NCBI RefSeq assembly: GCF_008932115.1
Contig: NZ_CP044543.1
Span: 3,850,501-3,914,500, forward strand
Reading direction: 5' to 3'
Length of the DNA stretch: 64,000 nt
Origin: Bradyrhizobium betae
GTDB lineage: Bacteria; Pseudomonadota; Alphaproteobacteria; Rhizobiales; Xanthobacteraceae
Shown: in pieces, positions 2,173-31,578 of the stretch
How positions within the stretch are numbered: the stretch's first letter is position 1
Layout: each line of letters opens with the position of its first letter
Program-made: the position numbers and the translations under genes
Notes under the pieces: model-generated
What the model was told of the DNA's origin: nothing
Databases searched by the model: none
Seen by the model: the letters and a program-made list of their open reading frames with translations, nothing else

Positions 2173-2286
2173 CACCGGAGTCCTCAGTTGAATGTCCGGT
2201 GATTTCTTTAGCGCTTCCGACGCGGCTTTTGGCAACTACGACCTTTCTAGTCGTCCTTCACGACGACAGTCGCAAGCAGGCCGTGC

Positions 2287-4551
2287 TCAGCCGGCGCAGC
2301 ACGATAACTTGGCGACATCCTTGCCGAACGACAGCGCCGCGAGCTTCAGACCCTCGACAGTGGTGAGATACGGAAAAATGGTATCCACGAGGTCATCGAC
2401 CGTGAGGCCCTGTCGGATTGCGATCGCCGCGGTCTGGATGCTGTCGGCGCCTTCCGGCGCAAGGATATGGGCGCCGAGTAGACGGCCGCTGCCGGCGTCG
2501 GCCACGAGCTTGATCAGCCCGCGGGTGTCACGAGCGGCAAGCGCGCGTGGCACCTGGTCAAGGCCGATCGTCGAGACACGAACGGTATGACCGGCCGCGC
2601 GCGCGGTGGCCTCGGTCAGCCCGACGCTCGCCACCTGGGGATCGGTGAACACGATGGCGGGCATGGCGCTGTTGTCGTAGCGCAGGCTGTCGCCATTGAA
2701 GGCGTTCCTGGCGGCGAGCTTGGCGCCGTAGGCAGCCATGTAGACGAACTGGTCGCGGCCGGTGACGTCGCCGGCGGCATAGACGCCAGTCTTGGTCGTG
2801 CGCATCCGGTCGTCGACTACGATGCCGCCCTTCGTCGAGACAGTGATCCCGTGCTCGGCCAGCCCAAGGCCTTCGATGTTGGGCGTGCGCCCCGTGGTGA
2901 TCAGCACCTGATCGGCGTCGATCGCAATATCCTGGCCGTCGCGCGTGACCGTCAGTGACACACCGCCATCAATTTTACGGATCGCGCGGTAAGCGATGCC
3001 GGAGACAACGGTGATGCCTTCGTCCTCGAAATACCCCGTGAGCGCCGCGCTGATCTCGGGCTCGGCCTCTGGGAGCAGACGAGACCGGCAGACGAGAGTC
3101 ACCTTAACGCCTGCACGAGCGAACATCTGCGCGAGCTCCGCGCCGATGTAGCCGCCGCCGATCACGAGAAGCGAGCTCGGCAGCTCCTCGAGCTCGAGCG
3201 CCGTTGTGCTGGTGAGATACGGCACGGTCACGAGGCCAGGAATGGCAGGCACTGCCGGCCGCGCGCCGGTCGCGATGATGATCTTGCCAGCGGCAATGCG
3301 CGCGCCGTCAACTTCGACACCGCCGTCGAGGAGGCGAGCTGGCCCGTCGCGATAGGCGATGCCGTTATACGCGGGGAGCAGATCGGCGTACTTGGCTTGG
3401 CGCAGTTCGGAAACGAGGGCGTCTTTCTGACGAACGGTTCCGCGCCAGTCGATCAGTTCGGCCGCCGCCGTGATGCCGGCAAAACGTGCCGCCACGCGAG
3501 CGTTGTGAAGCGTCTCGGCGGCGCGGATCAGGGTCTTTGACGGCACGCAGCCGATATTGACGCAGGTGCCGCCGATGGCGCCGCTGCCGATGAGCGCCAC
3601 TTGCGCGCCCTGATCGGCGGCCGTGATCGAGGCCGAGAAGCCGGCAGAGCCGGCGCCGATCACGACGAGATCGTAAGCGCCTCCATTGCGACCGTTTGTG
3701 CGGAAGGGGCGGTTCGCGACTGATGGGCTGTTCGATTCCGGATCGGCAGGCGGTTGTTGTGTCACACCGAGCCCGGCGAGGCTCGGCCCGAACAGAGCGC
3801 GGCCGGCCTCCAGGCCTTCATCGATCGACAGCCGAAAACCTGGCTCGTCGGCGGAACGCTCGCGGCGCCAGGCGGAGAGATGCTCATCCGAGCAGAAAAA
3901 GGTGGTCGTCGCGCACAGCGAGTTCGCGGCGCATGCGTCTTCATAGCGAACGCTTTGCCACATGACGGCCGTCTGCGGCTCGACATCGGCCAGCACCCGC
4001 CCTCGGTCCCGTGTGGTGATCCGGATTGGCGCGCCGCAATGGCGGCAACTCGAGGCGATCGAGATGTCGCGATCGGTCATGGCGCCGATCCCAAGCGCGT
4101 CGACCGCGCACATAGCGTTGAGCGCGCGCCCGTCCAGCGTGACCTCATGGCCCCTGTCTTGGTCGGTGAACGGATAGGCGCCGACGATTCGTTCGCCGTC
4201 GAGAACGACCAGGTCGCGCCGGCGGAGCTCGTCGAGCAACGGCGGGACGGCGGCCTCACCGAGACCTGCAAGGTTCGCAATCGCGGCTACGGTCAGCGCT
4301 CGCCCGTGTTCGACGTAGAGCTGAAGCAGCGCAACGCGCACGCGATCCGTGGCGGGATCGTAGCCGCTCCAGCGATTGAGCACGTGGCCAGACCCGACCA
4401 TGGCCAGCAAAGCGTCCCTCACTGCGGGCGACGTGACCGTCGACCAATCCGGGAACGTGACGCCCGGCCGCACCGCATAGCTGGGCAGAGTGTCGGGCGT
4501 AGGGATGACAGCTTCGTTTCGGGACGAGGAGGAGGCACAACAATCGTTCAC
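2287..4551 (-). CDS. merA: MerB-MerA fusion: organomercurial lyase / mercuric reductase, copy 1
   Basis: A 754-residue cytoplasmic fusion. Roughly residues 30-270 are MerB: a winged-helix start, then MCAVDALGIG (catalytic Cys and Asp) and SLCATTTFFCSDEH (second catalytic Cys). Roughly residues 290-754 are MerA: FAD-binding VVIGAGSAGFSASI, the redox-active GGTCVNIGCVPSKTL, NADPH-binding VIGGGYIGAELAQMF and C-terminal KLSCCAG. The protein should cleave C-Hg bonds and reduce the released Hg(II) to Hg(0) with NADPH. There is no N-terminal HMA domain. GTG 4551 is chosen over the ATG at 4623 because it overlaps the merF stop as GTGA and matches the start of copy 2 (NDCCA). It is last in merT-merP-merF-merBA. 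Confidence 0.93.
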   Translation of the reverse strand: MNDCCASSSSRNEAVIPTPDTLPSYAVRPGVTFPDWSTVTSPAVRDALLAMVGSGHVLNRWSGYDPATDRVRVALLQLYVEHGRALTVAAIANLAGLGEAAVPPLLDELRRRDLVVLDGERIVGAYPFTDQDRGHEVTLDGRALNAMCAVDALGIGAMTDRDISIASSCRHCGAPIRITTRDRGRVLADVEPQTAVMWQSVRYEDACAANSLCATTTFFCSDEHLSAWRRERSADEPGFRLSIDEGLEAGRALFGPSLAGLGVTQQPPADPESNSPSVANRPFRTNGRNGGAYDLVVIGAGSAGFSASITAADQGAQVALIGSGAIGGTCVNIGCVPSKTLIRAAETLHNARVAARFAGITAAAELIDWRGTVRQKDALVSELRQAKYADLLPAYNGIAYRDGPARLLDGGVEVDGARIAAGKIIIATGARPAVPAIPGLVTVPYLTSTTALELEELPSSLLVIGGGYIGAELAQMFARAGVKVTLVCRSRLLPEAEPEISAALTGYFEDEGITVVSGIAYRAIRKIDGGVSLTVTRDGQDIAIDADQVLITTGRTPNIEGLGLAEHGITVSTKGGIVVDDRMRTTKTGVYAAGDVTGRDQFVYMAAYGAKLAARNAFNGDSLRYDNSAMPAIVFTDPQVASVGLTEATARAAGHTVRVSTIGLDQVPRALAARDTRGLIKLVADAGSGRLLGAHILAPEGADSIQTAAIAIRQGLTVDDLVDTIFPYLTTVEGLKLAALSFGKDVAKLSCCAG

Positions 4552-4796
4552 GGCTTCACGCCTTCCTTGTGAATCGTCGTCTCGCAACGGGCGGCCTTTG
4601 CGTGGCGACGATGGAATATCCAAGCGATGAGGCCGAAGCTCGCAGCCATCAGCGGAAGCACTACAAGGCCCTTACCGGCTAGCCACGCGCCAAGGCCCGC
4701 AAAGGACAGGCCGACGGCAATGAGCGGCGCGGCGCAGCAGATCGCGACCAGGACGGCACCGGCCATGCCTACGCGGATTGCGGTGCGGTCACTCAT
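4548..4796 (-). CDS. merF: MerF mercury transporter, copy 1
   Basis: An 82-residue inner-membrane protein with two predicted helices and a vicinal Cys pair in the first (VAICCAAP, C20-C21). It should carry Hg(II) inward for the reductase. Known MerF has a second Cys pair near the C-terminus; here only one Cys remains (AARCETT). It lies one base after the merP stop and overlaps merBA by GTGA, so it is translationally coupled to it. Confidence 0.88.
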   Translation of the reverse strand: MSDRTAIRVGMAGAVLVAICCAAPLIAVGLSFAGLGAWLAGKGLVVLPLMAASFGLIAWIFHRRHAKAARCETTIHKEGVKP

Positions 4797-4797
4797 C

Positions 4798-5091
4798 TTA
4801 GCTGCCCCGCTGCCTCAGATGGGCTGGATAGCCCGCGTTCATGCTGGCGACGGCGATGATGTCGGCGTTCGTCTTTGCGTCGTCGAAGGTCACGGTCGCT
4901 GTCTTTGCCTCGAAGGAGACGGTCACATTCGCGACGCCCGGGACTGCCGTCATCGAGGTCTTCACGATGTAAGGGCACGAGGCGCAGGTCATGTTGTCGA
5001 CGGCAAACGTAACGGTGCGTTCGGCGGCGAACGCGGTCGATGCCGTCATCACCGAGGCGATTAGGGCAAGGACGCTCAAGCTCTTCTTCAT
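4798..5091 (-). CDS. merP: MerP periplasmic mercury-binding protein, copy 1
   Basis: A 97-residue protein with a signal peptide (MKKSLSVLALIASVMTASTAFA, cleavage near residue 22) followed by a heavy-metal-associated domain with the binding motif MTCASC (C36, C39). It should bind Hg(II) in the periplasm and pass it to MerT or MerF. The length matches the family. It sits 20 bp after merT. Confidence 0.93.
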   Translation of the reverse strand: MKKSLSVLALIASVMTASTAFAAERTVTFAVDNMTCASCPYIVKTSMTAVPGVANVTVSFEAKTATVTFDDAKTNADIIAVASMNAGYPAHLRQRGS

Positions 5092-5111
5092 GGGATGGTC
5101 TCCTCTTGGTG

Positions 5112-5537
5112 TCAGGCGAGCAGCAGCAGCGGGGCGACATAGTCAAAGGCAAAGGCGGCGATCACGAGCACAGTCGCGATCCAGAGCGCGAGCTGGACGA
5201 GACGGCTGGGGATGGGGCGCGCGCACGCGGCGCCAGCGGCGCAGGCGCGCCGCGGCTTCCAGTATACGAGGTAGAAACCGTATCCGAGGAGTCCCGCCGT
5301 TCCAGCGACGAAGAGCGGCTTGTACGGCGCGAGCGCCGTAAGGTTGCCGATCCAGGCGCCGCCGATGCCGAGGCTAAACAGGATGAGCGGAATTACGCAG
5401 CAGGACGACGCGGCGATCGCGCCGAGAATGCCGCCCAGAGCAACCAGACGCTGCCGTCCAGCCTCGGTCCGCTCCGACGATGCAAGAACTGTCGTGACGG
5501 GTGCCATATCTGCCGTTCCGGATCGCGGTGTAACCAT
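5112..5537 (-). CDS. merT: MerT mercuric transport protein, copy 1
   Basis: A 141-residue inner-membrane protein with three predicted helices, the Cys pair SSCCVIP in helix 1 (C46-C47) and a loop Cys pair (RRACAAGAACA). It moves Hg(II) from MerP to the cytoplasm. The start at 5537 (MVTPRSG) gives the same length as copy 2; an in-frame ATG at 5570 would add 11 residues. It is the first gene of the operon and is divergent from merR across a 19-bp-spacer promoter. Confidence 0.92.
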   Translation of the reverse strand: MVTPRSGTADMAPVTTVLASSERTEAGRQRLVALGGILGAIAASSCCVIPLILFSLGIGGAWIGNLTALAPYKPLFVAGTAGLLGYGFYLVYWKPRRACAAGAACARPIPSRLVQLALWIATVLVIAAFAFDYVAPLLLLA

Positions 5538-5578
5538 GTCCGACCTCTCATTCCTTGCCGAAATCCTCATTGCGGCGT

Positions 5579-5609
5579 AGGATGCGGTCTGTAGTCACTA
5601 CAGGGTCAA
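5579..5609 (-). promoter_or_regulatory. merT promoter and MerR operator, copy 1
   Basis: On the minus strand, TTGACC (-35, 5609-5604) and CATCCT (weak -10, 5584-5579) are separated by 19 bp, the long spacer typical of MerR-activated promoters. The spacer holds the dyad CTGTAG-TCA-CTACAG (5589-5603). MerR would repress without Hg(II) and untwist the spacer with it. Confidence 0.8.
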
Positions 5610-5621
5610 GGGGTATTTGCG

Positions 5622-6044
5622 ATGCGCGATCACGCTGTAGTGAAGGGCCTGCAGCGAGCCGAACTCGCCCGGCGGACGGGCAGCAATCTGGAGACGGTCC
5701 GCTACTACGAGAAGGTCGGGCTGCTGCCTGAGCCGCCGCGCACGACGGCGGGCTACCGCAGCTATGACACGACGCACGAGCGGCGGCTTCGCTTCGTCCT
5801 GCGGGCGCGCGAACTCGGCTTCTCGCTGGATGAAATCCGCGAGCTGCTGCGGCTCGTCGATGAACGCGATCAACCTTGCGCGGAGGCGCGCGCCGTCGCT
5901 GCTGCCCATCTCGACGACGTGCGAGCGAAGATCGCCGATCTGAAACGGATGGAGCGGGTATTGAAGGACGTGGTCGCACAATGCGCCGACGGCACGCTGC
6001 CAGAATGTCCGCTGATAGAGACGTTATTTGGTGAAGCCGCTTGA
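5622..6044 (+). CDS. merR: MerR mercury-responsive regulator, copy 1
   Basis: A 140-residue MerR-family activator-repressor. The N-terminal winged HTH (residues 10-50) includes ETVRYYEKVGLLPEPPRT; a dimerising helix follows. The three Hg(II)-binding cysteines of MerR are present: C86 (DQPCAEA), C121 (AQCADG) and C129 (PECP). It is divergent from merTPF-merBA and should control both directions from the operator at 5589-5603. Confidence 0.93.
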   Translation: MRDHAVVKGLQRAELARRTGSNLETVRYYEKVGLLPEPPRTTAGYRSYDTTHERRLRFVLRARELGFSLDEIRELLRLVDERDQPCAEARAVAAAHLDDVRAKIADLKRMERVLKDVVAQCADGTLPECPLIETLFGEAA

Positions 6045-11930: not shown

Positions 11931-12365
11931 TTACGCCCCCGCGAGCCTCTCGCCCGACTGGGCGGGAGCTGCGGCAGCGATCCGGACCCAGGCCGTCACG
12001 CCGACGGCGACGGCTCCGATTGCGGAGAACAGCATCTGCCAAGTCTCCGAGGGCACCGCGTGTTTCACGATCCCGTGGACGGCGTGATAGCCGGCCAGCG
12101 CCGCAGGCGCTGCAAAGACCAGCCCGACGGCCAGCCGCAGCCAAGCCGGGCGGGTGATGGTGAAGAGGAATTGGCCGAGCCCGAGCGTCAGCCCGGCGGT
12201 TATGAGGCCGACCAGGATGCCGCCGGGCCAGCCTGCGCCCATCTCATAGGCCCAGCTGCCGGCGACGACGCCGGCAAACAGGGGCAGCGCGTAGATGGCG
12301 AGGGTGAAGAGCAGCCAGCACAAGATGCCGATGGTTGCGATGCTGAGGAGGATGCCGATAACCAT
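11931..12365 (-). CDS. Membrane protein of unknown function
   Basis: A 144-residue protein with about four predicted transmembrane helices (MVIGILLSIATIGILCWLLF, LPLFAGVVAGSWAY, GGILVGLITAGLTLGLGQFL, AVGLVFAAPAALAGY) and a fifth weaker one near the C-terminus. It has no motif I can name. Similar small membrane proteins occur beside DUF736 in alphaproteobacterial ICEs, but that is memory and not something seen here. It is probably real because hydrophobic spans are clean and codon use is like its neighbours. Confidence 0.65.
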   Translation of the reverse strand: MVIGILLSIATIGILCWLLFTLAIYALPLFAGVVAGSWAYEMGAGWPGGILVGLITAGLTLGLGQFLFTITRPAWLRLAVGLVFAAPAALAGYHAVHGIVKHAVPSETWQMLFSAIGAVAVGVTAWVRIAAAAPAQSGERLAGA

Positions 12366-12667
12366 GGTGGTGCTCCATGCAATAGCCTGCGGGTCGCGCC
12401 TTCCACCACCGCCACGGCGCAGATCGAAATATAGCCGAAAGAGAGCAAGCGCGGGAGCGGAAATCCGGCAGGATCTTCGCTCCGCGGAGCCGATCGTGCT
12501 TAGAGCGCGAAGGGATCTACTTCGTGGACGATAGCCGCGGCGTCGCCGTCATATTCGTTGGCGGGAACGACGGAGTTATCCTGACTCTGTGTTCTGTCTT
12601 ACCGCTGTGACGTTCGCAGCACACGATCAACGTTGACGACATTCCCCTTCGCTTGAGGTGAGGCGAT

Positions 12668-12717
12668 GCGATTTTCCCGCCGGGACGGGCTCGAGCCCGT
12701 CCCGGCGGGAAAATCGC
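12668..12717. repeat. 50-bp perfect palindrome before the recombinase operon
   Basis: Bases 12668-12692 are the exact reverse complement of 12693-12717, with no loop and no mismatch; the outer arms read GCGATTTT and AAAATCGC and the centre is GGCTCGAGCC. It ends five bases before the Shine-Dalgarno (AGGAG, 12723-12727) of the first recombinase gene. It could be a recombinase binding or end site, a cruciform, or an mRNA hairpin blocking read-through into the operon. The rest of 12366-12667 shows no gene. Confidence 0.9.
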
Positions 12718-12733
12718 GGCCGAGGAGAACAGG

Positions 12734-14173
12734 ATGCCCCAGCTCTTCTTCACGGATCTTTCGACGCTGCGGCAGTCTGTTACGGTTGATGGCGTCGTCC
12801 ACAGGCTGTCGGTGGATGAAGTCGCAGCCGCCGAGAAGCTGAACCTCGTGGACGGCATGCCGTTCATTCTTGGCGATGACGACAGCTACGATCACGACCT
12901 GAACCGGTTCTTTCGAGCTTGCCCCACGTTGGGGGTTCGTTCGCCCAACAGCTTGCGCGCCTATGGTTGGGATATCCTGATCTGGATGCGCTTTCTTGCC
13001 GAGCGCCGAGACAACAGAGCCCTCTGGGCGGCTGATCGGCACGATGTCGCAGCCTTCCATGCGGCGCGACGTCTGGCGCTTCCTCCGGCGCGCATCTCGG
13101 CCGCGAGCTGGAACCGGTCGGTAGCAGCGCTCGACAAGCTTTACCGATGGGCTCTTGAAGAGGGAATGATCGCCAAATCGCCTTTCACCTATCGGCAATC
13201 ATGGCGACGGACGAACGGCGGCGGGGCCATAGCGGTCGCTGCCAATGTTGCCACCGAGCGCGGCGCACGGACACGCGATATCCGGTTCCTTTCCCTGGAT
13301 CGGTATCTCCTGTTTCGCGAGATCGGCTTGCGTGGTCGTCTTCCAGACGGGAGCGAGGATCCCACCTGGCAGGGCCGCAACAGCGAGCGCAATGCGTTGT
13401 TCGCCGAATTGCTCGTCACGACGGGCCTGCGGCTCCAGGAAGCGGCAAGTCTGCTCTGGATCGAGTTCCCGAGGACGGAGCCGGTCGGTGCATTGAGGAG
13501 CCGATCTTTCCGACTGGCGCCGGCCATTGCCAAGGGTAGCAAGGGGCGCGAGATCCGCTTGCCCGAGCGCGTGCTGAAGCGTCTGCATGAATACGCGGCG
13601 TTGGAACGGACCAATGTCCTCATGCGCCTTTCGCAACCGCGCAATAGGTCAATCGAACATCCGATCCGTGTCGTCAGCCACGATCGGGGAAGGCTCCTTC
13701 TGGAAAAGGACACAGTTCGAGCCAGTGTCGACGTGCTGGCGCCGCGCGAACGCAGCCGCTTGGTATGGGCGGAAACATCCGAACCATTGTGTCTTTGGCT
13801 GGCGGAAGGGGCGCGGCCCATGCCCCCGGCCGCTTGGGAGGTGGTCTTCCGGAGGGCAAGCGTACGGTGCAGGCGGTTCGGGATCGACCTCGACGTCACT
13901 CCGCACATGATGCGCCACACCTTTGCGGTTCATATGCTGTCGCTGCTCGTGCGTGAACAGATCGGATGGGTACTCGACGAACGCCGATCCCATATCGGCG
14001 CGGCGTACCGCCGCTTGATTGGCGATCCTCTTCTGAAGTTGCAGCGTTTGCTGGGCCATAGCCGCATCGAAAGCACTCACATCTACCTGGATTGCATGGA
14101 AGAAAGCCAGGAAATGATCGACGCTGCGGTCGAGGCCTGGGAACTGCGCGTTAATGCTGGTGGACCCCTGTGA
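12734..14173 (+). CDS. Tyrosine recombinase 1 of the cassette (TnpA-like)
   Basis: A 479-residue site-specific recombinase. An N-terminal SAM-like DNA-binding region (about residues 55-150) precedes a catalytic domain with the full set: Arg in TTGLRLQEAASLLW (about residue 233), H-M-M-R in PHMMRHTFAVHML (about 392-395), LLGHSRIES, and the nucleophile in HIYLD (about 451). It should cut and rejoin DNA at the element ends through a phosphotyrosine link. It is the first gene of the operon, with AGGAG six bases before the ATG and the 50-bp palindrome immediately upstream. The end overlaps the next gene by ATGA. Confidence 0.9.
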   Translation: MPQLFFTDLSTLRQSVTVDGVVHRLSVDEVAAAEKLNLVDGMPFILGDDDSYDHDLNRFFRACPTLGVRSPNSLRAYGWDILIWMRFLAERRDNRALWAADRHDVAAFHAARRLALPPARISAASWNRSVAALDKLYRWALEEGMIAKSPFTYRQSWRRTNGGGAIAVAANVATERGARTRDIRFLSLDRYLLFREIGLRGRLPDGSEDPTWQGRNSERNALFAELLVTTGLRLQEAASLLWIEFPRTEPVGALRSRSFRLAPAIAKGSKGREIRLPERVLKRLHEYAALERTNVLMRLSQPRNRSIEHPIRVVSHDRGRLLLEKDTVRASVDVLAPRERSRLVWAETSEPLCLWLAEGARPMPPAAWEVVFRRASVRCRRFGIDLDVTPHMMRHTFAVHMLSLLVREQIGWVLDERRSHIGAAYRRLIGDPLLKLQRLLGHSRIESTHIYLDCMEESQEMIDAAVEAWELRVNAGGPL

Positions 14174-15981
14174 TGAAACGCGGTCGTCGTGCCACCTTCC
14201 CAGTTGGAATCGAATTGTTCGACACTCAAGAGGAAAATCCGCAAAATCCGCTCGTCTTCGTCCTTCGGACGGAAGATGCCGGGAGGATCGACGTCAATCT
14301 GTCTTCCTGGCCGCTGACGGCGCTGACCCATGAGGTTGCGCCATTCCTGCAGGAGTATCTCCACCGGATGGGGCCGGCACCACTCTGGAAAACCGCAGGC
14401 ACCTTTATCCGCCGTCTGCGGCGGTTCTGGCTGTTCCTGGAAGGGGCGTCGGTAAAACCTCGTCGTCTCGACGACTTAACTCCGGCGGTAATCAATGCCT
14501 ATGAGGACTGGCTGGAGCAGAACGGCGGCGAGCGACCCAATCAGCGCAATGTGCTCGGTGCTCTGATCGGGGTGCTGCGCGTCGCCGCCGAGCTCAATCC
14601 TGAAAGGCTTCCGCCCGAAACACTGTTGCGCCTGAAATACATCGGTCACGGCGAGCACGGCGTCTCAAAGCCGCGCGATGCCTACAGTGGGAGGATTGCC
14701 TCGACGTTGCTGCAGGCAGCGATGCGCCAGATCATCGAGGCTCGCGACCGGATAGCGACGGGCGAGGCTCTGCCTCCCCCACTTCTGGATGTAGGCCGTG
14801 ATCCAGAATTGCGCCGTCGCTATGACCTAGTGGTCGAACAGATTGTGACGGCGGGAGTAGTCGCCGGGGAAGGCGCGCTGTTCGACAATCTGCGCTACCA
14901 CGCTCATAGATGCGGGCTCGAGCCGCCTCCGGTCGAGGAACTGCATGCCGGCTTCCATCTGACCCGGTACGATGTCGTCGGCTTCCTCGTCTGGCTGTCC
15001 TTGACGACCGGCATGGAGATCGAAGCGCTGCGTGGGCTTGAGGCTGACTGCTTGCGCAATCCCAACCGGGGTTATGTCGAGATCGAGTATCGAAAGCGGC
15101 GCGCGCATCATGCCCAGTGGAAGCGCTTGCGTGTCCGCGATGGCGGACGGGAGACGCCCGGAGCCGTCCTGCGGCTGGCGATCAAGCTGACGGAAAAGGC
15201 TCGGCAGCACACTGGATCGAGCAAGCTCTGGATCACCTGGAAGCCGGGGCGCCTGTCGTCGCCGAAAAAGCTGGGGACCTGCGTGGCCGCGTTTGTCGAG
15301 AAGTACGGAATCGTCGATGACGCCGGAAAATCGCTGGCGCTCAATCTCTCCAGGCTGCGCAAGACCCAGAAGGCTGACTGGTATAAGCGGACCGGAGGGC
15401 AGTTGGAGAACTTTGCCGTCGGCCACACGGTAGCGGTGGCGGCCAACCATTATGCCGACATCCCCGCCCTTCGGCATCTGCATGAGCAGACGATAGTCGA
15501 GGCACTGACCGACGCGATGGCGCCGGCTCTGCGACCTTGGATCGTTGTGCCCGCGGATGAAGCCCGGCTGCGAACCTCAGCCGACGCGACCGGGCTGCCG
15601 GTGCCGTCGGAAAAGATCGGCCCGCTCCTGGACGGAGAGCAGGATCTTTGGCTGGCGGCGTGCAGCAACTTCCGCGTCAGCCCTTTCGGTCGGGAAGGCG
15701 AAGCCTGTCCGACGCCGTTCTGGGGGTGCCTGGAATGCTCCAACGCGGTCATTACCGCACGGAAACTACCGGCGCTGATCGCGTTCCAGGCGTTCATGGA
15801 CGAGCTGCGGGAGGCGTTGCCTTCTGGCGACTGGAACGAGAAATTCGATCGGCCATACCGCAGGATCACGGAGCAAATTCTGCCGATGTTCCCGTCCTCC
15901 GTCGTCGGAGGCGCACGGGTTGAGGCGGCAGAATCCTCGGCGCGGTTGCTCTATCTTCCGCCGGAGGCTTACGGCTCATGA
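14170..15981 (+). CDS. Tyrosine recombinase-like protein 2 (TnpB-like), degenerate active site
   Basis: A 603-residue protein with an N-terminal core-binding region (PLWKTAGTFIRRLRRFWLFL) and a C-terminal integrase fold. The first catalytic Arg is missing: the usual TG-L-R reads LTTGMEIEALRGLEADCL (about residue 280). The HxxR box reads LSRLRKT, with Ser for His. GHTVAVAANHYAD keeps the second His and the Tyr. The C-terminus has a Cys cluster (EACPTPFWGCLECSN) like that of Tn554 TnpB. It may act as a structural partner in a multi-recombinase complex. It overlaps both neighbours by ATGA. Confidence 0.85.
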   Translation: MMKRGRRATFPVGIELFDTQEENPQNPLVFVLRTEDAGRIDVNLSSWPLTALTHEVAPFLQEYLHRMGPAPLWKTAGTFIRRLRRFWLFLEGASVKPRRLDDLTPAVINAYEDWLEQNGGERPNQRNVLGALIGVLRVAAELNPERLPPETLLRLKYIGHGEHGVSKPRDAYSGRIASTLLQAAMRQIIEARDRIATGEALPPPLLDVGRDPELRRRYDLVVEQIVTAGVVAGEGALFDNLRYHAHRCGLEPPPVEELHAGFHLTRYDVVGFLVWLSLTTGMEIEALRGLEADCLRNPNRGYVEIEYRKRRAHHAQWKRLRVRDGGRETPGAVLRLAIKLTEKARQHTGSSKLWITWKPGRLSSPKKLGTCVAAFVEKYGIVDDAGKSLALNLSRLRKTQKADWYKRTGGQLENFAVGHTVAVAANHYADIPALRHLHEQTIVEALTDAMAPALRPWIVVPADEARLRTSADATGLPVPSEKIGPLLDGEQDLWLAACSNFRVSPFGREGEACPTPFWGCLECSNAVITARKLPALIAFQAFMDELREALPSGDWNEKFDRPYRRITEQILPMFPSSVVGGARVEAAESSARLLYLPPEAYGS

Positions 15982-18122
15982 CCACTACCTCTCCTTTGAA
16001 CGATGAGCGTGCCGTCTCACGCCTCAGGGTCGATGACGACATCGTTTTGGCTTCGATGCCTCTCAGGGATGGTACCGACCGAGCGGCGCTCTCGCGGTTC
16101 GGCGATGATGTCTGGGATATGGCGCCGGCGATGTTCAACATGGCCAGAAAGGCCTTTCGAACGGTCGACTTCGGCGTGATCCCCTGCGCGGCAGAGCGGT
16201 TGCTTGCGAAGGAATACATCTATGCCTGGATGAATGAACGGCGCGCCGACGGTGAGCCGCGGTTGCGGCCAGTCTCCGGCCATACTGCGCTTGCGACGCT
16301 GCGCCGGTTCCTGGACTTCGTGCGCTCGCGGATCGGCAAGCTCGATCTGGCAAACGTCGATCAGGATTTGATCGATGCATACGCGACCCATCACCGGGCG
16401 CGGCCGATCACGCCGGGGCGCGTGGGTGTGTGCCTCAGGCCCATCGTCCAGCTTCATCGCCTGGCGCCCTATCTGACGTGCGGTGGCATCACCTTCACCC
16501 CGTGGCGCGGCCGACCGGTCTATCGGGCAACCGGCCAGGGAACGCGCTGTTCGGAAAACCGGACCGCGCGCATCCCGGAGCCGGTCATCGGCGCAATGCT
16601 GCGATGGGCCTTGAAATATGTCGAGCACCTCTGCGACGACATCTTCACTGCCCGGGCTGAAGCCGATGCACTGAACAGCCGGTTCGCAGCACGCTCGCGC
16701 GCCCGCCACACGCGGCCCGCGGTAATGCTGGCCTCCTGGATCGACAAGCGTCGCGAGGAAGGAAGAGGCATTCCTGTCTGGGAAAGACCTCTTTCGATCG
16801 GGGGGCTGACCGGCAGATTGTCGCGGGGCGGCAGGTTTGATGGCGAGGTCATCAATCTGAAGCTCCTGACGATGCAATGCGGGCTGCATCTCACCACCGT
16901 CCACAAAGATCCGGCCCTGTTGTCGATGGTTCATGATGCTGTCGACGAGCTTGGGTTCGAGGTGGGCGGGATGGACACGCCGATCTCCCCGGATCCCGAC
17001 ACGGGGCGACCGTGGCGGGAGCGCTTCGATGCCATCAGCCTGGCGCGGGAAGAACGGCACCTGCAGACGGCCGCCTATATCGTGTGTTGCTATCTGACGG
17101 GCATGCGCGACGGTGAGGTGCAGTCGCTGCGATCCGGCTGCCTGAAACGGAATCTCGACCGGGACGGGCGAACAGAAAGGCTGGCGATTGAGGGCGTGAC
17201 CTGGAAGGATCGCGGCGCTCGCGGCGAACAGGTCGAATGGATCACCATCGAGGCCGCCGTCCAGGCGATCGGGGTTGCCGAGCGTCTTTCGGAACGATTC
17301 CGCCGGAATGCGGGGACAGAGCGGCTATGGCTTGCCCTTGACGACCGCGAGACGAACAATGCCGAGACGCCGATACTCATCGCCAAGAAGATCAACCAAT
17401 TCCGAGAACATCTCGATGAGCGATATGGCGCGGACGATAGTCCTGTGATCCCCCGAGTGGGAGAAGACGTCTGGCGCTTCAACACCCGTCAGTTCAGGCG
17501 AACGCTGGCCTGGTACATCGCGAACCGGCCCTTCGGGGTTGTCGCCGGCAAAATCCAGTACAAGCACGCCTCCGTGGCCATGTTCAACGGCTATGCCGGC
17601 TCGTCCGCATCCGGCTTCAGGCAGGAGGTCGAACAGGAACTGGCGCTCGGACAACTCGACGACATCATCGACTACTTCGAAAACCATCGACGCGGTCACG
17701 GTCCAGGCGGACCCGCCGGTAAGCGCGTCGGCGTGGAACTGGAGCGGGTCGGCCGCGAACTCGGCCCGCTTCCGGGGCAACTGGCCGATCGCAAGCGCCT
17801 GAAGGCGATGCTGGCGCATCTGGCGCGCACGCTGCATGTCGGATATCTGAACGACTGCTTCTTCGACCCATTGACGGCGCTCTGCCTGCGGGAGTCTGAG
17901 AAACCTTCAGCCTCGGTGCCGGTCCTGTCGCGATGCGCGCCCGACCGATGTCCCAACGCCTGCCTCGTCGAGCGACATCTCCCGCCATGGGAAGCCTCCA
18001 TTGCACAGGCGGAGGATCTTCTCGCCGACAAGCGTCTCTCCCCGCTGCAACGCGAAGCGCTGCGCCTGGACAACGACAGAAAACGCAGGCTCATCGCGCC
18101 GTTGAAGGAACGCACATCATGA
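15978..18122 (+). CDS. Tyrosine recombinase 3 of the cassette
   Basis: A 714-residue integrase-like protein. The catalytic region has Arg in CCYLTGMRDGEVQSLRSG (about residue 376), TRQFRRTLAWY in place of the HxLRRT box, and a late YKHASVAMFNGYAG with His and candidate Tyr (about 531-538). The C-terminus is Cys-rich (CAPDRCPNACLVERH), as in protein 2. It is longer than common recombinases because of an N-terminal domain and an insertion around residues 210-330. It overlaps gene 2 by ATGA and the small gene 4 by ATGA, so all four products are likely made together. Confidence 0.85.
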   Translation: MTTTSPLNDERAVSRLRVDDDIVLASMPLRDGTDRAALSRFGDDVWDMAPAMFNMARKAFRTVDFGVIPCAAERLLAKEYIYAWMNERRADGEPRLRPVSGHTALATLRRFLDFVRSRIGKLDLANVDQDLIDAYATHHRARPITPGRVGVCLRPIVQLHRLAPYLTCGGITFTPWRGRPVYRATGQGTRCSENRTARIPEPVIGAMLRWALKYVEHLCDDIFTARAEADALNSRFAARSRARHTRPAVMLASWIDKRREEGRGIPVWERPLSIGGLTGRLSRGGRFDGEVINLKLLTMQCGLHLTTVHKDPALLSMVHDAVDELGFEVGGMDTPISPDPDTGRPWRERFDAISLAREERHLQTAAYIVCCYLTGMRDGEVQSLRSGCLKRNLDRDGRTERLAIEGVTWKDRGARGEQVEWITIEAAVQAIGVAERLSERFRRNAGTERLWLALDDRETNNAETPILIAKKINQFREHLDERYGADDSPVIPRVGEDVWRFNTRQFRRTLAWYIANRPFGVVAGKIQYKHASVAMFNGYAGSSASGFRQEVEQELALGQLDDIIDYFENHRRGHGPGGPAGKRVGVELERVGRELGPLPGQLADRKRLKAMLAHLARTLHVGYLNDCFFDPLTALCLRESEKPSASVPVLSRCAPDRCPNACLVERHLPPWEASIAQAEDLLADKRLSPLQREALRLDNDRKRRLIAPLKERTS

Positions 18123-18493
18123 AGCCGGTCAGTGCAGCCACGGAACAGGCGCTTCGTGAGGCGATGGCGCGCCTCCTTTATGGGTGCCCCCGCGTGGCTG
18201 ATGGCAGGCTGACGGTTGTGAATCTGGCCATCGAGGCAGGTGTCAGTCGCGCGACCGCGAACCGCGCTTCCGAGGTGCTGGAAGCCTTCCGCCATGCAGT
18301 TGCCGAGTCGAGAGCCCGGCGCAACGCGACGGATCGGCCGGCGGGGACGGCCCGGGCCGAACAGGAGCGGCGCGCCGTCGAAACCGTGCTCGCCCAGCAT
18401 CGTCAAGTCCGCGCGCTGTGCCAGCTTATGGAACGGCGGCGCGATAACCGCACCGCCGACGTCATACCGATCATCGGCAGGAAACGCCCTTGA
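18119..18493 (+). CDS. Small TnpC-like protein of the recombinase cassette
   Basis: A 124-residue protein, close to the 125 residues of Tn554 TnpC. Residues 25-50 look like an HTH (VVNLAIEAGVSRATANRASE), followed by a charged helical stretch (RRNATDRPAGTARAEQERRA) likely to be a coiled coil. In Tn554 TnpC affects orientation and efficiency of insertion; the same role here is inference from position and size. The stop lies 12 bp from the convergent merBA-2 stop. Confidence 0.75.
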   Translation: MKPVSAATEQALREAMARLLYGCPRVADGRLTVVNLAIEAGVSRATANRASEVLEAFRHAVAESRARRNATDRPAGTARAEQERRAVETVLAQHRQVRALCQLMERRRDNRTADVIPIIGRKRP

Positions 18494-18505
18494 CGCCGAT
18501 TGTGC

Positions 18506-20743
18506 TCACCCGGCGCAGCAGGAGAGTTTGGCGATGTCCTTGCCGAACGAAAGTGCTGCGAGCTTCAGCCCCTCGACCGTGGTGAGGTAAGGAAAGATCG
18601 TGTCCGCGAGGTCATCGACGGTGAGACCCTGGCGGATCGCGAGAGCCGCGGTCTGAATGCTGTCGGCACCTTCCGGCGCGAGGATGTGGGCGCCGAGCAA
18701 ACGACCGCCAGCAGCATCGGCCACGAGCTTGATAAGCCCACGAGTGTCGCGGGCGGCGAGTGCGCGCGGCACCTGATCGAGACCGATCGTCGAAACGCGG
18801 ATCTCATGCCCGGCCGCACGCGCCGCCGCCTCGGTGAGACCTACGCTTGCGACCTGCGGATCGGTGAAGACGATAGCGGGCATGGCGCTGTTATCGTAGC
18901 GCAGGCTGTCGCCATTGAGGGCGTTCTTGGCGGCGAGCTTGGCGCCATAGGCGGCCATGTAGACGAACTGGTCGCGGCCGGTGACGTCGCCGGCGGCATA
19001 GACGCCAGCCTTGGTCGTGCGCATGCGGTCGTCGACCACGATGCCGCCCTTCGCCGAGACGGTGATCCCGTGCTCGGCCAGCCCAAGGCCTTCGATGTTG
19101 GGCGTGCGGCCCGTGGTGATCAGCACCTGATCGGCGTCGATCTGGACATCGTGACCGTCACGCGTGACGGTCAGTGACGCTCGGCCCTCGGTTTTGCGGA
19201 TCGCGCGGTAAGCGATGCCGGAGATAACGGTGATGCCTTCATCCTCGAAATACCCCGTGAGCGCCGCGCCGATCTCGGGCTCGGCCTCGGGGAGCAGTCG
19301 GGACCGGCAGACGAGGGTCACCTTGACGCCGGCACGGGCGAACATCTGGGCGAGCTCCGCGCCGATATAACCGCCGCCGATCACCAGCAGCGATCGCGGC
19401 AGTTCCTCGAGGTCGAGCGCCGTCGTACTGGTGAGATACGGTACGGTCTCGAGGCCAGGAATAGCAGGAACTGCCGGCCGCGCGCCGGTTGCGATAATGA
19501 TCTTGCCAGCGGCAATACGCGCGCCGTCAACTTCGACACCGCCGTCGAGGAGGCGAGCCGGCCCGTCGCGATAGGCGATACCATTGTACGCGGGGAGCAG
19601 GTCCGCGTATTTGGCCTGGCGCAGCCCAGACACGAGCGTGTCCTTCTGACGAACGGTTCCGCGCCAGTCTGTCAGTTCGGCTTCAGCAGTAATGCCGGCA
19701 AAACGTGCCGCCACGCGAGCGTTATGAAGCGTCTCGGCCGCGCGGATCAGGGTCTTCGACGGCACGCAGCCGACATTGACGCAGGTGCCGCCGATGGTGC
19801 CACTGCCGATGAGCGCCACCTGTGCGCCCTGATCGGCGGCCGTGATCGAGGCCGAGAAGCCGGCCGAGCCGGCGCCGATGACGACGAGATCGTAAGCGCC
19901 TCCATTGCGACCGTTTGTGCGCAAGGGTCGGTTGGCGACCACCAGGCTCTTCGACGCCACATCGAGACCAGCGAGGCTCGGCCCGAACAGAGCACGGCCG
20001 GCTTCCAGTCCTTCCTCGATCGACAGCCGGAAACCTGGCTCGTCGGTGGAACGTTCGTCGCGCCAGGCGGAAAGATGCTCGTCCGAGCAGAAAAAAGCGG
20101 TCGTCGCGCAGAGCGAGCTCGCGGCGCAGCCGCCTTCATAACGGACGCTCTGCCACATGACGGCCGACTGTGGCTCGACGTCGGCGAGTGCCCGCCCTCG
20201 GTCCTGCGTGGTGATCCGGATCAGTGCGCCGCAATGGCCGCAGGGCGAGGCGATCGCGGTGTCGCGATCGGTCATGGCACCGATGCCCAGCGCGTCGACC
20301 GCGCACATTGCATTCAGCGTGCGTCCGTCCAGAGTGACCCGATGGCCGGTGTTATGATCGCTGAACGGATAGGCGCCGACGATCAGCTCGCCATCGAGAA
20401 CGACGAGGTCGCGCCGGCGGAGCTCGTCGAGCAGTGGCCGGATGACCATCTCACTGAGTTTTGTACGCTCCGCAAGCGCGCTTATGGTCGGGGCACCCCC
20501 GTGGTCGGCGTAGAGTCGGAGCAACGCAACACGCACCCTGTCGGTGGCGGGATCGTAACCGCTCCAGCGATTGAGCACGTGGTCGGACCCGACCATCGCC
20601 TGCAGAGCGTTCTTGACCACAGGCGACGTGACCGCCGACCAATCCGGAAACGTTACGCCCGGTCGAACGGCAAAGCTCGCCAGTGTCGCGGGCTGAGAAA
20701 CGGCCGGGTTGTCCCGGGAGGAGGTTGCACAGCAATCGTTCAT
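18506..20743 (-). CDS. merA: MerB-MerA fusion: organomercurial lyase / mercuric reductase, copy 2
   Basis: A 745-residue fusion with the architecture of copy 1. The MerB part has NAMCAVDALGIG and SSLCATTAFFCSDEH; the MerA part has VVIGAGSAGFSASI, GGTCVNVGCVPSKTL, VIGGGYIGAELAQMF and KLSCCAG. ATG 20743 overlaps the merF-2 stop as ATGA. Compared with copy 1 it lacks a few residues in the linker between domains (VASKSLVVANRP). By eye the two proteins are near 90 percent identical, so the copies are neither recent perfect duplicates nor unrelated. It converges on the recombinase cassette with only 12 bp between stops. Confidence 0.93.
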   Translation of the reverse strand: MNDCCATSSRDNPAVSQPATLASFAVRPGVTFPDWSAVTSPVVKNALQAMVGSDHVLNRWSGYDPATDRVRVALLRLYADHGGAPTISALAERTKLSEMVIRPLLDELRRRDLVVLDGELIVGAYPFSDHNTGHRVTLDGRTLNAMCAVDALGIGAMTDRDTAIASPCGHCGALIRITTQDRGRALADVEPQSAVMWQSVRYEGGCAASSLCATTAFFCSDEHLSAWRDERSTDEPGFRLSIEEGLEAGRALFGPSLAGLDVASKSLVVANRPLRTNGRNGGAYDLVVIGAGSAGFSASITAADQGAQVALIGSGTIGGTCVNVGCVPSKTLIRAAETLHNARVAARFAGITAEAELTDWRGTVRQKDTLVSGLRQAKYADLLPAYNGIAYRDGPARLLDGGVEVDGARIAAGKIIIATGARPAVPAIPGLETVPYLTSTTALDLEELPRSLLVIGGGYIGAELAQMFARAGVKVTLVCRSRLLPEAEPEIGAALTGYFEDEGITVISGIAYRAIRKTEGRASLTVTRDGHDVQIDADQVLITTGRTPNIEGLGLAEHGITVSAKGGIVVDDRMRTTKAGVYAAGDVTGRDQFVYMAAYGAKLAAKNALNGDSLRYDNSAMPAIVFTDPQVASVGLTEAAARAAGHEIRVSTIGLDQVPRALAARDTRGLIKLVADAAGGRLLGAHILAPEGADSIQTAALAIRQGLTVDDLADTIFPYLTTVEGLKLAALSFGKDIAKLSCCAG

Positions 20744-20988
20744 GGCTTCACGCCTTCCTTGCGAATCTTCGTCTCATAGGCCGTGGCTCTTGCCCGGCGA
20801 TGATGGGGCCCCCACGCGCCGAAGCCGAAGCCCGCGACGATCAGGGGAAGCACCACTGCACCCACACCTGTCAGCCACGTGCCAAGACCCGCCAGAGACA
20901 GGCCGACGGCGAGGAGCGGCGCCGCGCAGCAGATCGCGGCGAGGACGGCGCCAACGGCACCTGCGCGGATTACGGCGCGATCAGTCAT
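20740..20988 (-). CDS. merF: MerF mercury transporter, copy 2
   Basis: An 82-residue inner-membrane protein with two predicted helices and the Cys pair AAICCAAP in helix 1. The C-terminal second Cys pair of classical MerF is gone completely (ARATAYETK). The start directly adjoins the merP-2 stop and the end overlaps merBA-2 by ATGA. Confidence 0.87.
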   Translation of the reverse strand: MTDRAVIRAGAVGAVLAAICCAAPLLAVGLSLAGLGTWLTGVGAVVLPLIVAGFGFGAWGPHHRRARATAYETKIRKEGVKP

Positions 20989-21282
20989 CTAGCTGCCTTG
21001 CTGCGTCGGGTGGGCCGGATAACCAGCATTCATGCTGGCGGCTGCGATGGCATCGGTGCTCGTCTTAGCGTCGTCGAAGGTCACGGTCGCGGACTTCGCC
21101 TCGAAGGAGACGGTCACCTTCGCGACACCGGGGATTGCCGCCATCGTGGTCTTCACGATGTAGGGGCACGAGGCGCAGGTCATGTTGTCGACGGCAAACG
21201 TCACAGTGCGTTCGGCGGCGAAGGCGGCAGGCGCAGTCATCACCGACGCGATCAAAGTGAAAGCGCTCAAACTCTTCCTCAT
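20989..21282 (-). CDS. merP: MerP periplasmic mercury-binding protein, copy 2
   Basis: A 97-residue protein with signal peptide (MRKSLSAFTLIASVMTAPAAFA) and HMA motif MTCASC. It is about 80 percent identical by eye to copy 1, with most changes outside the metal-binding region. A longer in-frame extension upstream (to 21591) overlaps merT and has no family match, so ATG 21282 is used. Confidence 0.92.
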   Translation of the reverse strand: MRKSLSAFTLIASVMTAPAAFAAERTVTFAVDNMTCASCPYIVKTTMAAIPGVAKVTVSFEAKSATVTFDDAKTSTDAIAAASMNAGYPAHPTQQGS

Positions 21283-21302
21283 GGGGTAGTCTCCTCTTGG
21301 TG

Positions 21303-21728
21303 TCAGGCGGAAAGCAGCAGCGGCGCGACGTAGTCGAAGGCGAAAGCAGCGGCGACGAGTACGGTCGCGAACCAGAGCGCGATCTGAACGAGGCGGCTGG
21401 GGACGGCGCGCGTGCAGGCAGCCCCATCGGCACAGGCCTGTCGCGGCTTCCAGTAGACAAGGTAGAAGCCGTAGCCGAGCATGCCCGCCGTTGCGGCGAC
21501 AAACAGTGGCTTGTAGGGCGCAAGCGCCGTCAGATTGCCGATCCAGGCGCCGCCGATGCCGAGGCTGAACAGGACGAGCGGAATGATGCAACAGGACGAG
21601 GCGGCGATGGCGCCGAGTATGCCGCCGACGGCGACCAGGCGCTGTCGCCCGGCCTCGCTTCGCTCTGGCGTCGTCAGGTTTGCCGCAGTCGGTGCAACGT
21701 CTGCTGGTCCGTGTCGGGATGCATTCAT
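21303..21728 (-). CDS. merT: MerT mercuric transport protein, copy 2
   Basis: A 141-residue inner-membrane protein with three predicted helices, SSCCIIP in helix 1 and the loop cysteines (RQACADGAACT). It takes Hg(II) from MerP into the cytoplasm. It is the first gene of operon 2, with merP 20 bp downstream as in copy 1. Confidence 0.92.
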   Translation of the reverse strand: MNASRHGPADVAPTAANLTTPERSEAGRQRLVAVGGILGAIAASSCCIIPLVLFSLGIGGAWIGNLTALAPYKPLFVAATAGMLGYGFYLVYWKPRQACADGAACTRAVPSRLVQIALWFATVLVAAAFAFDYVAPLLLSA

Positions 21729-21769
21729 GTTCGACCTCGCTCTTCTTGTCGAAAACCTATCCAGGCGCT

Positions 21770-21800
21770 AATGTGCGGTCTGTAGCAACTACAGGGTCAA
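21770..21800 (-). promoter_or_regulatory. merT promoter and MerR operator, copy 2
   Basis: On the minus strand, TTGACC (21800-21795) and CACATT (21775-21770) are 19 bp apart, with the dyad CTGTAG-CAA-CTACAG (21780-21794) in the spacer. Only the central triplet differs from the copy 1 dyad, so either MerR could act on both operons. Confidence 0.8.
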
Positions 21801-21813
21801 GGGGTATTTTTGG

Positions 21814-22254
21814 ATGCGCGATCACGCTGGCGTGAAAGGCCTCAAGCGCGCCGAACTCGCACAGCGCACAGGGTGCAATCTGGAGACGGTCCGCTATTAC
21901 GAGAAGGTCGGCCTCCTGCCGGAGCCGCCGCGCACGGCGAGCGGCTATCGCAGCTACGACAGCACCCACGAGCGACGGCTTCGCTTCGTCTTGCGGGCGC
22001 GCGAGCTCGGCTTCTCCCTCGATGAAGTCCGTGAACTGCTGCGCCTCGTCGACGAGCGCGACCAGCCCTGCGCCGAGGCAAGCGCCGTTGCCGCCGCGCA
22101 TCTCGACGACGTGCGTGAAAAGATCGCCGACCTGAAACGCATGGAGCGAGTGCTGAAGGACGTGGTGGCCCAATGCACAGAAGGCAATCGGCGGGAATGT
22201 CCGCTGATCGAGACGCTGTTCCGGGAGCCGGCGAGCTCAGCGAAATGCCAGTGA
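21814..22254 (+). CDS. merR: MerR mercury-responsive regulator, copy 2
   Basis: A 146-residue MerR with winged HTH (ETVRYYEKVGLLPEPPRT) and the three Hg-binding cysteines C86, C121 and C129. It is close to 90 percent identical by eye to copy 1, with a longer C-terminus (REPASSAKCQ). It is divergent from merT-2. Its 3' end overlaps a small convergent gene by 18 bp. Confidence 0.93.
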   Translation: MRDHAGVKGLKRAELAQRTGCNLETVRYYEKVGLLPEPPRTASGYRSYDSTHERRLRFVLRARELGFSLDEVRELLRLVDERDQPCAEASAVAAAHLDDVREKIADLKRMERVLKDVVAQCTEGNRRECPLIETLFREPASSAKCQ

Positions 22255-22374
22255 GACAGCTTGACTGTTCAGATAAACGCCGAGGCTGCCGTCACCGGCC
22301 TGGAAGATCACGATGGTGACCATCAGCGTCGTGGCGAGGCTGAAGGCGAAGGCGTGCGCTTGGTTGAGGGACAT
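22237..22374 (-). CDS. Small membrane protein, 45 residues, unknown
   Basis: The protein starts MSLNQAHAFAFSLATTLMVT and continues IVIFQAGDGSLGVYL. It has one predicted transmembrane helix. ATG 22374 has AGGAG nine bases upstream, which is why I choose it over a longer frame. It overlaps the end of merR-2 tail to tail. No family is recognised; it could be spurious, but hydrophobic pattern and ribosome site favour a real small protein. Confidence 0.5.
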   Translation of the reverse strand: MSLNQAHAFAFSLATTLMVTIVIFQAGDGSLGVYLNSQAVSLAFR

Positions 22375-30094: not shown

Positions 30095-30169
30095 GACGGG
30101 CGGCCGGGAGCCTCTCTCTCGGCCTCCTACCCGTCACGAAGCGCAGCGCCGCCCTCTTCCTCTGAAGAG
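30095..30169 (-). promoter_or_regulatory. Two-hairpin leader of parB, shared with DUF932
   Basis: Read on the minus strand, hairpin I has stem CTCTTC/GAAGAG (30169-30154). Hairpin II has stems GACGGG/CCCGTC (30135-30130 with 30100-30095) and GGCCG/CGGCC (30124-30120 with 30106-30102), enclosing a loop with GAGAGAGGCTCC. The same layout and loop sequence precede DUF932, with differences that keep pairing through G-U. This points to a cis-acting RNA or protein-binding site. Confidence 0.6.
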
Positions 30170-30255
30170 AGCGACGCCGCAGAAACGTGGATCAGGAAAA
30201 GCGCAGAGCCGGAGAGCCGCGAACCGGCAAAGCCGATTCCACGGCTCGGCAGGAG

Positions 30256-31465: not shown

Positions 31466-31542
31466 GACGAGCCGGCCGGGAGCCTCTCTCTCGACCCTCA
31501 ACCCGTCACGGCGATAGCCGCTGCCCTCATCCTCTTATGGGC
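31466..31542 (-). promoter_or_regulatory. Two-hairpin leader of DUF932, shared with parB
   Basis: Hairpin II pairs GACGGG (31507-31502) with CTCGTC (31471-31466) and GGTCG (31496-31492) with CGGCC (31478-31474); each stem uses one G-U where parB has G-C. The loop keeps GAGAGAGGCTCC. Hairpin I pairs GCCC (31542-31539) with GGGC (31526-31523) and keeps AGAGG in its loop. The start codon is about 14 bases downstream. Confidence 0.6.
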
Positions 31543-31578
31543 GCCTTGCGGGGCAGGATGCGCGGAAAACGCGGCGCT

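Follow-up and report, generated by a model that had tools for sequence, protein, structure and literature searches.

Recombinase-in-trio (RIT) elements carry three adjacent tyrosine-recombinase-type genes in one operon and have inverted-repeat ends. The Tn554 family (TnpA-TnpB-TnpC) comprises tyrosine-recombinase transposons that have a short core, carry resistance genes and close their operon with a small accessory gene. In IS10, IS50 and IS200, hairpin leaders limit transposase expression. We analysed a 64,000-nucleotide stretch of the Bradyrhizobium betae genome (the window; contig NZ_CP044543.1) that contains a perfect 50-bp palindrome. On balance, we regard this palindrome as probably being the 5'-leader hairpin of the recombinase operon in a tyrosine-recombinase-trio transposon, folded as sense RNA and controlling recombinase expression. 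The direct support is threefold: the position of the palindrome inside the element, compensatory change in relatives, and other stem-loops at the same place in other branches. The host of the palindrome is a 9,701-bp tyrosine-recombinase transposon at 12576-22276 with imperfect inverted-repeat ends, and its features are as follows.

12570..12575, no strand: left flanking core ACGGAG, 6 bp, from flank comparison of copies
12576..12601, plus strand: transposon left end TTATCCTGACTCTGTGTTCTGTCTTA, from the end pattern; outside it the flanks differ among copies
12668..12717, plus strand: 50-bp perfect palindrome; its RNA form is a 23-bp hairpin with a UCGA loop, predicted at -51.5 kcal/mol
12734..14173, plus strand: recombinase 1, 479 aa, a tyrosine recombinase with Phage_integrase and SAM-like domains and HMMRH and LGH...Y motifs
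14170..15981, plus strand: putative recombinase 2 (602-603 aa), GH...Y motif retained; no family above the Pfam cut-off
15978..18122, plus strand: putative recombinase 3 (714 aa), labelled 'integrase' in relatives; no family above the Pfam cut-off
18119..18493, plus strand: small fourth ORF of the operon, 124 aa, with a weak helix-turn-helix match below cut-off
18506..20743, minus strand: cargo merBA, fused organomercurial lyase and mercuric reductase, from annotation of the same element elsewhere
20740..22254, no strand: remaining mer cargo genes, by position, from annotation of the same element
21814-22254, plus strand: merR-type cargo gene, within the remaining mer genes
22252..22276, minus strand: transposon right end, related to the left end in inverted orientation and reading TTATCTGAACAGTCAAGCTGTCTCA on this strand, from the end-pattern search
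22277..22282, no strand: right flanking core ACGCCG, 6 bp, from flank comparison

Recombinase 1 matches Phage_integrase with an E-value of 7e-13 and possesses the R...HxxR...Y catalytic set, the first Arg of which was read by eye. The naming of genes 2 and 3 as putative recombinases draws on motifs and on how their relatives are annotated rather than on a family score. The GMRDxE, TRQxRRT and KHAS...GY motifs of recombinase 3 are invariant in nine aligned proteins. Recombinase 2 features a Glu (TGMEIEAL) at the position expected for the first catalytic Arg, invariant in 8/8 aligned proteins, and given this Glu in place of Arg the subunit may be catalytically altered. AlphaFold models of recombinases 2 and 3, made from three-row alignments, reached mean pLDDT values of 45.7 and 46.4, too poor for use. 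The viral contigs searched contained no relatives; among genomes, relatives were found in 1/385 at class level (the genome studied here), in 1/12 and 1/6 at family level, and in 4/397 in each of two order-level searches, own genome included.

The terminal inverted repeat is imperfect, about 26 bp long and present at both ends, as in RIT elements, and a short overlap core flanks each end, as is expected of a tyrosine-recombinase transposon. The left-end pattern TTATC...GTCTYA occurs in the window and in 24 of 26 related loci (L001-L026, with no match in L025 and L026), and its inverted right-end partner in the window and 11 of these 26; several of the loci lacking a right end stop too early to show one, and L022-L026 extend further and still gave no match. 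Among the 12 elements listed, the 6-bp cores are identical on both sides in L005, L011, L012, L016, L017 and L020 and unequal in the window, L013, L015 and L021; L018 has no clear pair, and in L019 the left flank lies outside the piece covered. A copy on the second contig of the genome (L063) is identical to the window element at 9,701/9,701 bases, with the same two cores in swapped order (ACGCCG/ACGGAG versus ACGGAG/ACGCCG). Judged from the flanks, this swap appears to have been left by strand exchange with a 6-bp stagger and unequal cores, or else by the copies recombining with each other. The same element, palindrome included, is present on Sinorhizobium pSinA, Aminobacter pSR2 and Paracoccus pTAV4 with 2-5 mismatches per 9,701 bp and with flanking sequences that differ from those of the window. 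The related element L005 (recombinase 1 87% identical) has the same ends and spans 5,939 bp, its match to the window stopping before the mer genes. A second mer-like cluster at 2283-6023, outside the element and 16 kb upstream, is about 84% identical to the cargo (about 18502-22228) in the form found in L015-L017.

Ten relatives (L011, L012, L013, L021, L025, L047 and L054-L057) share an insertion point, a single run of codons in an ArdC-type zincin metallopeptidase gene; directly before TTATC the left flank can be translated as EE(L/I)(V/I)A, and the zincin metallopeptidase annotation of the target gene comes from L025, L054 and L056. In L025 (1-3130) a smaller trio lies directly upstream of a trio with a type D leader (leader types are given below), and the type D trio has stretches annotated as zincin metallopeptidase on either side. 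The window itself has an intact minus-strand ORF at 30256-31452, resembling DUF932 genes in L022 and L024; both flanks of L018 place its insertion at the point that corresponds to window 30973, and the right flank of L019 matches the same point, so that, as judged from these matches, the window holds an empty target for the L018 and L019 elements. This ORF is flanked by 72-nt direct repeats (30101-30172 and 31473-31544, 76% identical), which may represent leader or regulatory elements used in common by the plasmid-like backbone.

The palindrome consists of two 25-nt arms (12668-12692 and 12693-12717) that are 100% complementary with a 0-nt spacer. This repeat-search result bears out the first-pass annotation, which had described a perfect 50-bp palindrome with 25-bp arms and no loop or mismatch. 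The same annotation placed it just ahead of a recombinase operon and near a ribosome site, which also agrees with what we find: an SD-like GAGGAG begins 4-5 nt past the palindrome and recombinase 1 starts at 12734. Its further claim that such a sequence is unstable unless selected is overstated, as palindrome arms as short as 25 nt are usually tolerated in bacteria; the sequence is unchanged in the window and 10 of the 26 scanned loci (L001-L026). With the base composition of the window (G+C 64%), about 4e-10 loopless palindromes with 25-nt arms are expected in 64 kb, which rules out a chance origin. No second perfect inverted repeat (arms of at least 13, loop of at most 8) was found by the scan of the window, and the arm has no further match within the 64 kb. 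In the whole genome (7.4 Mb, two contigs) a search allowing up to 3 mismatches places the arm at the two transposon copies and nowhere else, the second copy being on the 269-kb contig, which excludes a repeat scattered through the genome. Within the element the palindrome lies 92 bp from the left end and 16 nt upstream of recombinase 1.

Ten loci, L001-L007 and L015-L017, carry the palindrome letter for letter, among them L005 and L006, in which recombinase 1 is only 87% and 86% identical. Between L005 and the window the palindrome is conserved at 50/50 positions, the preceding 92 bp at 82/92 and the third codon positions of recombinase 1 at 80%. More distant elements have a different sequence with the same symmetry at the same place: a perfect 46-bp palindrome in Novosphingobium (L019, recombinase 1 60% identical in amino acids) and a 50-bp palindrome with a single G-T in Mesorhizobium (L018, recombinase 1 58%). 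In a relic on a Rhizobium etli plasmid (L034) the left end is degenerate and the palindrome contains three G-T pairs; on this plasmid (L034:5900-6070) no recombinase gene is annotated after the palindrome, and an AraC-type regulator gene adjoins. Across these four distinct palindromes, with one row standing for the identical ones of the window, L001-L007 and L015-L017, 89/89 aligned cells are paired and 13/23 pairs have changed on both sides. None of 500 shuffles reached this covariation, in a test that is favoured by the structure having been derived from the same four sequences, and sliding the partner by 1-3 columns lowers pairing to 40-52%. The central 12 bases, GGGCTCGAGCCC, are invariant in 4/4 distinct palindromes. 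A palindrome search of plasmids returned 11 records, a list from which L019 is absent: four of the same element, L018, the relic L034, and five others (three Streptomyces, Nonomuraea and Azospirillum; E 0.07-0.9) that we take as chance matches; the Azospirillum record, the one of the five that was opened, has no trio annotated.

Relatives of the trio beyond these have other structures in the leader, here grouped into four types.

Type A: the palindrome
Type B: about 180 nt with several stems (L008, L009, L020, L021, L031 and L035-L037)
Type C: a 22-nt loop on a stem that contains one mismatch (L022-L024)
Type D: a stem of 12-24 bp closed by a loop of 16-29 nt that is well conserved (13 loci)

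The first-pass annotation had called for a search for the palindrome at the same place in related cassettes. Some relatives do have a palindrome there, of differing sequence, and other branches have stem-loops with 6-29-nt loops instead. It had also named, as outcomes against its reading, related cassettes that move without the palindrome and a lack of protein binding. On the first point, relatives lacking a perfect palindrome do seem mobile (one Mesorhizobium sophorae genome has six such loci, each on its own contig), but they have other hairpins in its place. A best stem score of at least 9 is reached by 28/29 leaders versus 102/580 random windows of the same loci, and a score of at least 12 by 18/29 versus 22/580 (the leaders of L032, L040 and L049 being left out). 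The folding z-score over 60 shuffles is -2.0 or lower in 24/29 leaders, for 22/29 at most 5 of 60 random windows fold as low, and the window leader has a z of -5.5 over 195 nt. Single type B stems of 9-10 bp are not rare, since 18% of random windows reach 9. A left end related to that of the window, TTATCTNGACAG, occurs in 13 of the 16 further leaders (type D). Type D pairing is kept in 96.2% of 209 cells in an alignment of 11 of the 13 leaders (L046 and L048, whose hairpins are identical to those of L043 and L042, were omitted), and two of five covariation measures are weak, namely both-side changes (20/500 shuffles as high) and further pair types (40/500). In L045 no stem reaches the threshold and folding is matched by random windows (36/60 as low), and L058 has no recognisable left end; both were included in the recombinase 1 tree and excluded from the pair counts.

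Leader type and recombinase seem not always to travel together. The type B leader of L008 matches 20 plasmid records at 84-92%; at L008:7810-7985 it is about 180 bp long and shows 92.3, 89.8 and 87.9% DNA identity to the leaders of L035-L037, the three opened records that contain other trios, in which recombinase 1 is 25-27% identical to that of the window and, for L036, 25-28% identical to those of L008, L009, L020 and L021. The leader of L008 is 89.0% identical to that of its sister L021, with recombinase 1 at 83%, and is as close to the leaders of L035-L037. Compensatory pairs are present in type B as well, at 4 of the 53 predicted pairs. In the recombinase 1 tree, in which L019 and L020 are flagged as long branches, L020 with its type B leader falls inside a clade of four type A rows (100/98, then 95/92). 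Since a type B leader kept at 88-92% identity spans recombinases of about 25% identity and L020 lies inside the type A clade, modular exchange of leaders is the simplest reading. We suggest, tentatively and at less than even confidence, that the trio transposons of alphaproteobacterial plasmids possess interchangeable structured leader RNAs (types A-D), swapped between elements with recombinases of about 25% identity, which would constitute an undescribed RNA class regulating site-specific recombination.

The pairs that depart from Watson-Crick geometry point to the molecule that folds. In type A they are three G-T cells, with no A-C and no other mismatch among 89, and all are G-T on the sense strand; the longer L034 stem adds one further G-T. 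In type D there are 12 G-T, no A-C and 8 other mismatches among 209 cells. Because the sequences share ancestry, we take as the fair count the one in which each column and pair type is counted once, which gives 9 G-T (10 with the extra pair of L034) against 0 A-C in the aligned stems; one minor stem of the L009 leader, with two G-T and one A-C, is the exception. A duplex-DNA palindrome has no reason to favour G-T over A-C, so G-T pairs without A-C argue that the sense strand folds. Strand-biased C-to-T mutation (deamination) could also produce the G-T excess. The minimum free energy is lower on the sense strand in 25/29 leaders, but the shuffle z-scores show no consistent strand difference, so it is the G-T counts that carry the strand argument.

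These counts bear first on the idea of a site read in DNA: an operator close to the element end, or an arm-type binding site, to which the recombinases or the small fourth protein would bind, and which would act as duplex or cruciform in autorepression or synapsis. The perfect dyad, the invariant 12-bp centre in 4/4 distinct sequences and the location 92 bp inside the left end, ahead of the operon, are what such a site might look like; however, other branches have stem-loops with loops of 6-29 nt, the arm has no other match in the window, and the departures are G-T with no A-C (type D also having 8 other mismatches), so that we consider it unlikely. The cruciform recognised by the recombinases, one of three guesses in the first-pass annotation, is disfavoured by the same looped stem-loops and by the presence of G-T but no A-C in the stems counted. 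Folding of the sense strand as single-stranded DNA during conjugative transfer, either as a single-strand promoter or as a recombination substrate, has a slim chance of being correct: which strand enters would depend on the orientation of insertion, no sigma-70-type match was found, and the element ends lie elsewhere, although many carriers are conjugative plasmids (66 of the 117 plasmid records matching related DNA are of conjugative type) and the G-T bias marks one strand. It is quite improbable, too, that the palindrome is neutral and kept perfect by template-switch (quasipalindrome) correction between its arms. Such correction makes arms match without selection and covariation alone is compatible with it, but the branches with looped stems keep their pairing (the 96.2% of type D cells), the L005 palindrome is conserved at 50/50 positions, G-T pairs persist in L018 and L034, and every type A element that has an operon carries the palindrome before it. 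Finally, a recombination or end site of the element, another of the earlier guesses, or a hairpin-telomere-like site for one recombinase, which perfect palindromes bring to mind since telomere resolvases, relatives of tyrosine recombinases, act on them, is rejected as highly improbable: the ends were mapped at 12576 and 22276 with the 6-bp cores outside them, ends and cores lie away from the palindrome in several copies, palindrome-less relatives end in the same way, and no second match to the arm was found in the window, so the palindrome is a leader between the left end and recombinase 1, neither end nor crossover.

For the leader RNA hairpin, we envisage that the sense-strand RNA would form a stem of 23 bp capped by a UCGA loop, 16 nt ahead of the recombinase 1 start codon, and that this hairpin would hold recombinase expression low or conditional. 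Candidate modes include a roadblock to ribosome loading, a processing site of the RNase III type (a duplex of 21-26 bp), mRNA stabilisation, and binding of the invariant tip by a protein of the element. The combination of an invariant tip, GGGCUCGAGCCC, with a covarying lower stem suggests that the tip may be read as sequence and the stem as structure. Since relatives sit inside plasmid genes, such as the ArdC-type and DUF932-like ones, whose read-through transcription can reach them, limiting expression from read-through transcripts would make sense. A scan for promoters of the sigma-70 type found no match in 12400-12800. The third earlier guess, a hairpin that blocks outside transcripts, is in kind the best supported of the three as a leader RNA hairpin, with blocking of outside transcripts as a possible effect. 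Predicted accessibility of the ribosome site in the window is 0.41 with the leader and 0.36 with only its last 16 nt; no loss of access is predicted in the window, L005 or L018, and simple SD sequestration in the window is rejected on this basis, while in L019 the predicted access is 0.31 with the leader versus 0.50 without. An intrinsic terminator on either strand is likewise rejected: there is no U run, with GGCCGAGG following on the plus strand and ATCGCCTC on the minus strand, and the palindrome is not among the sites returned by the terminator scan. Terminator-like sites were found elsewhere, at 12537-12549 and 12570-12590 (2 in 400 bp versus 0.3 in shuffles); the weak match at 12570-12590 spans the left end and the flanking core, with 9 pairs followed by GTTCTGTCTT. 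A known Rfam RNA family is rejected as well, as the search (six loci; window 12000-19000) gave no leader match above gathering score, the best sub-threshold matches being mir-610 (29.3/90 bits) and c-di-GMP-II-GCG (26/47.9).

If the leader RNA reading holds, a structured, swappable leader RNA would set the expression of large multi-recombinase transposons that carry mercury resistance between distant alphaproteobacteria, and it would offer a directly testable handle on how trio transposons restrain their recombinases. The locus resembles IS10, IS50 and IS200 in having a strong hairpin upstream of a recombination gene; unlike theirs, the window hairpin is internal, excludes the element end and brings no predicted drop in ribosome-site access. 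The likeness to RIT elements lies in the gene arrangement, with genes at 12734-14173, 14170-15981 and 15978-18122 on the same strand and with overlapping ends, of which only recombinase 1 passes Pfam cut-offs and the other two are putative recombinases; unlike RIT elements, the window element has proteins of 479, 602 and 714 aa, a fourth ORF and mer cargo. The neighbouring trio of L025 (about 400, cut, 313 and 330 aa), which we take to be of RIT size, is the sole RIT-sized comparison: it matches recombinase 1 of the window element only at E 0.001-0.003 or worse and shows no significant match to recombinases 2 and 3. Like the Tn554 family, the window element is a tyrosine-recombinase transposon that bears resistance cargo, has a short core and ends its operon with a small gene; unlike that family, it has three large recombinase-like genes and clear inverted-repeat ends.
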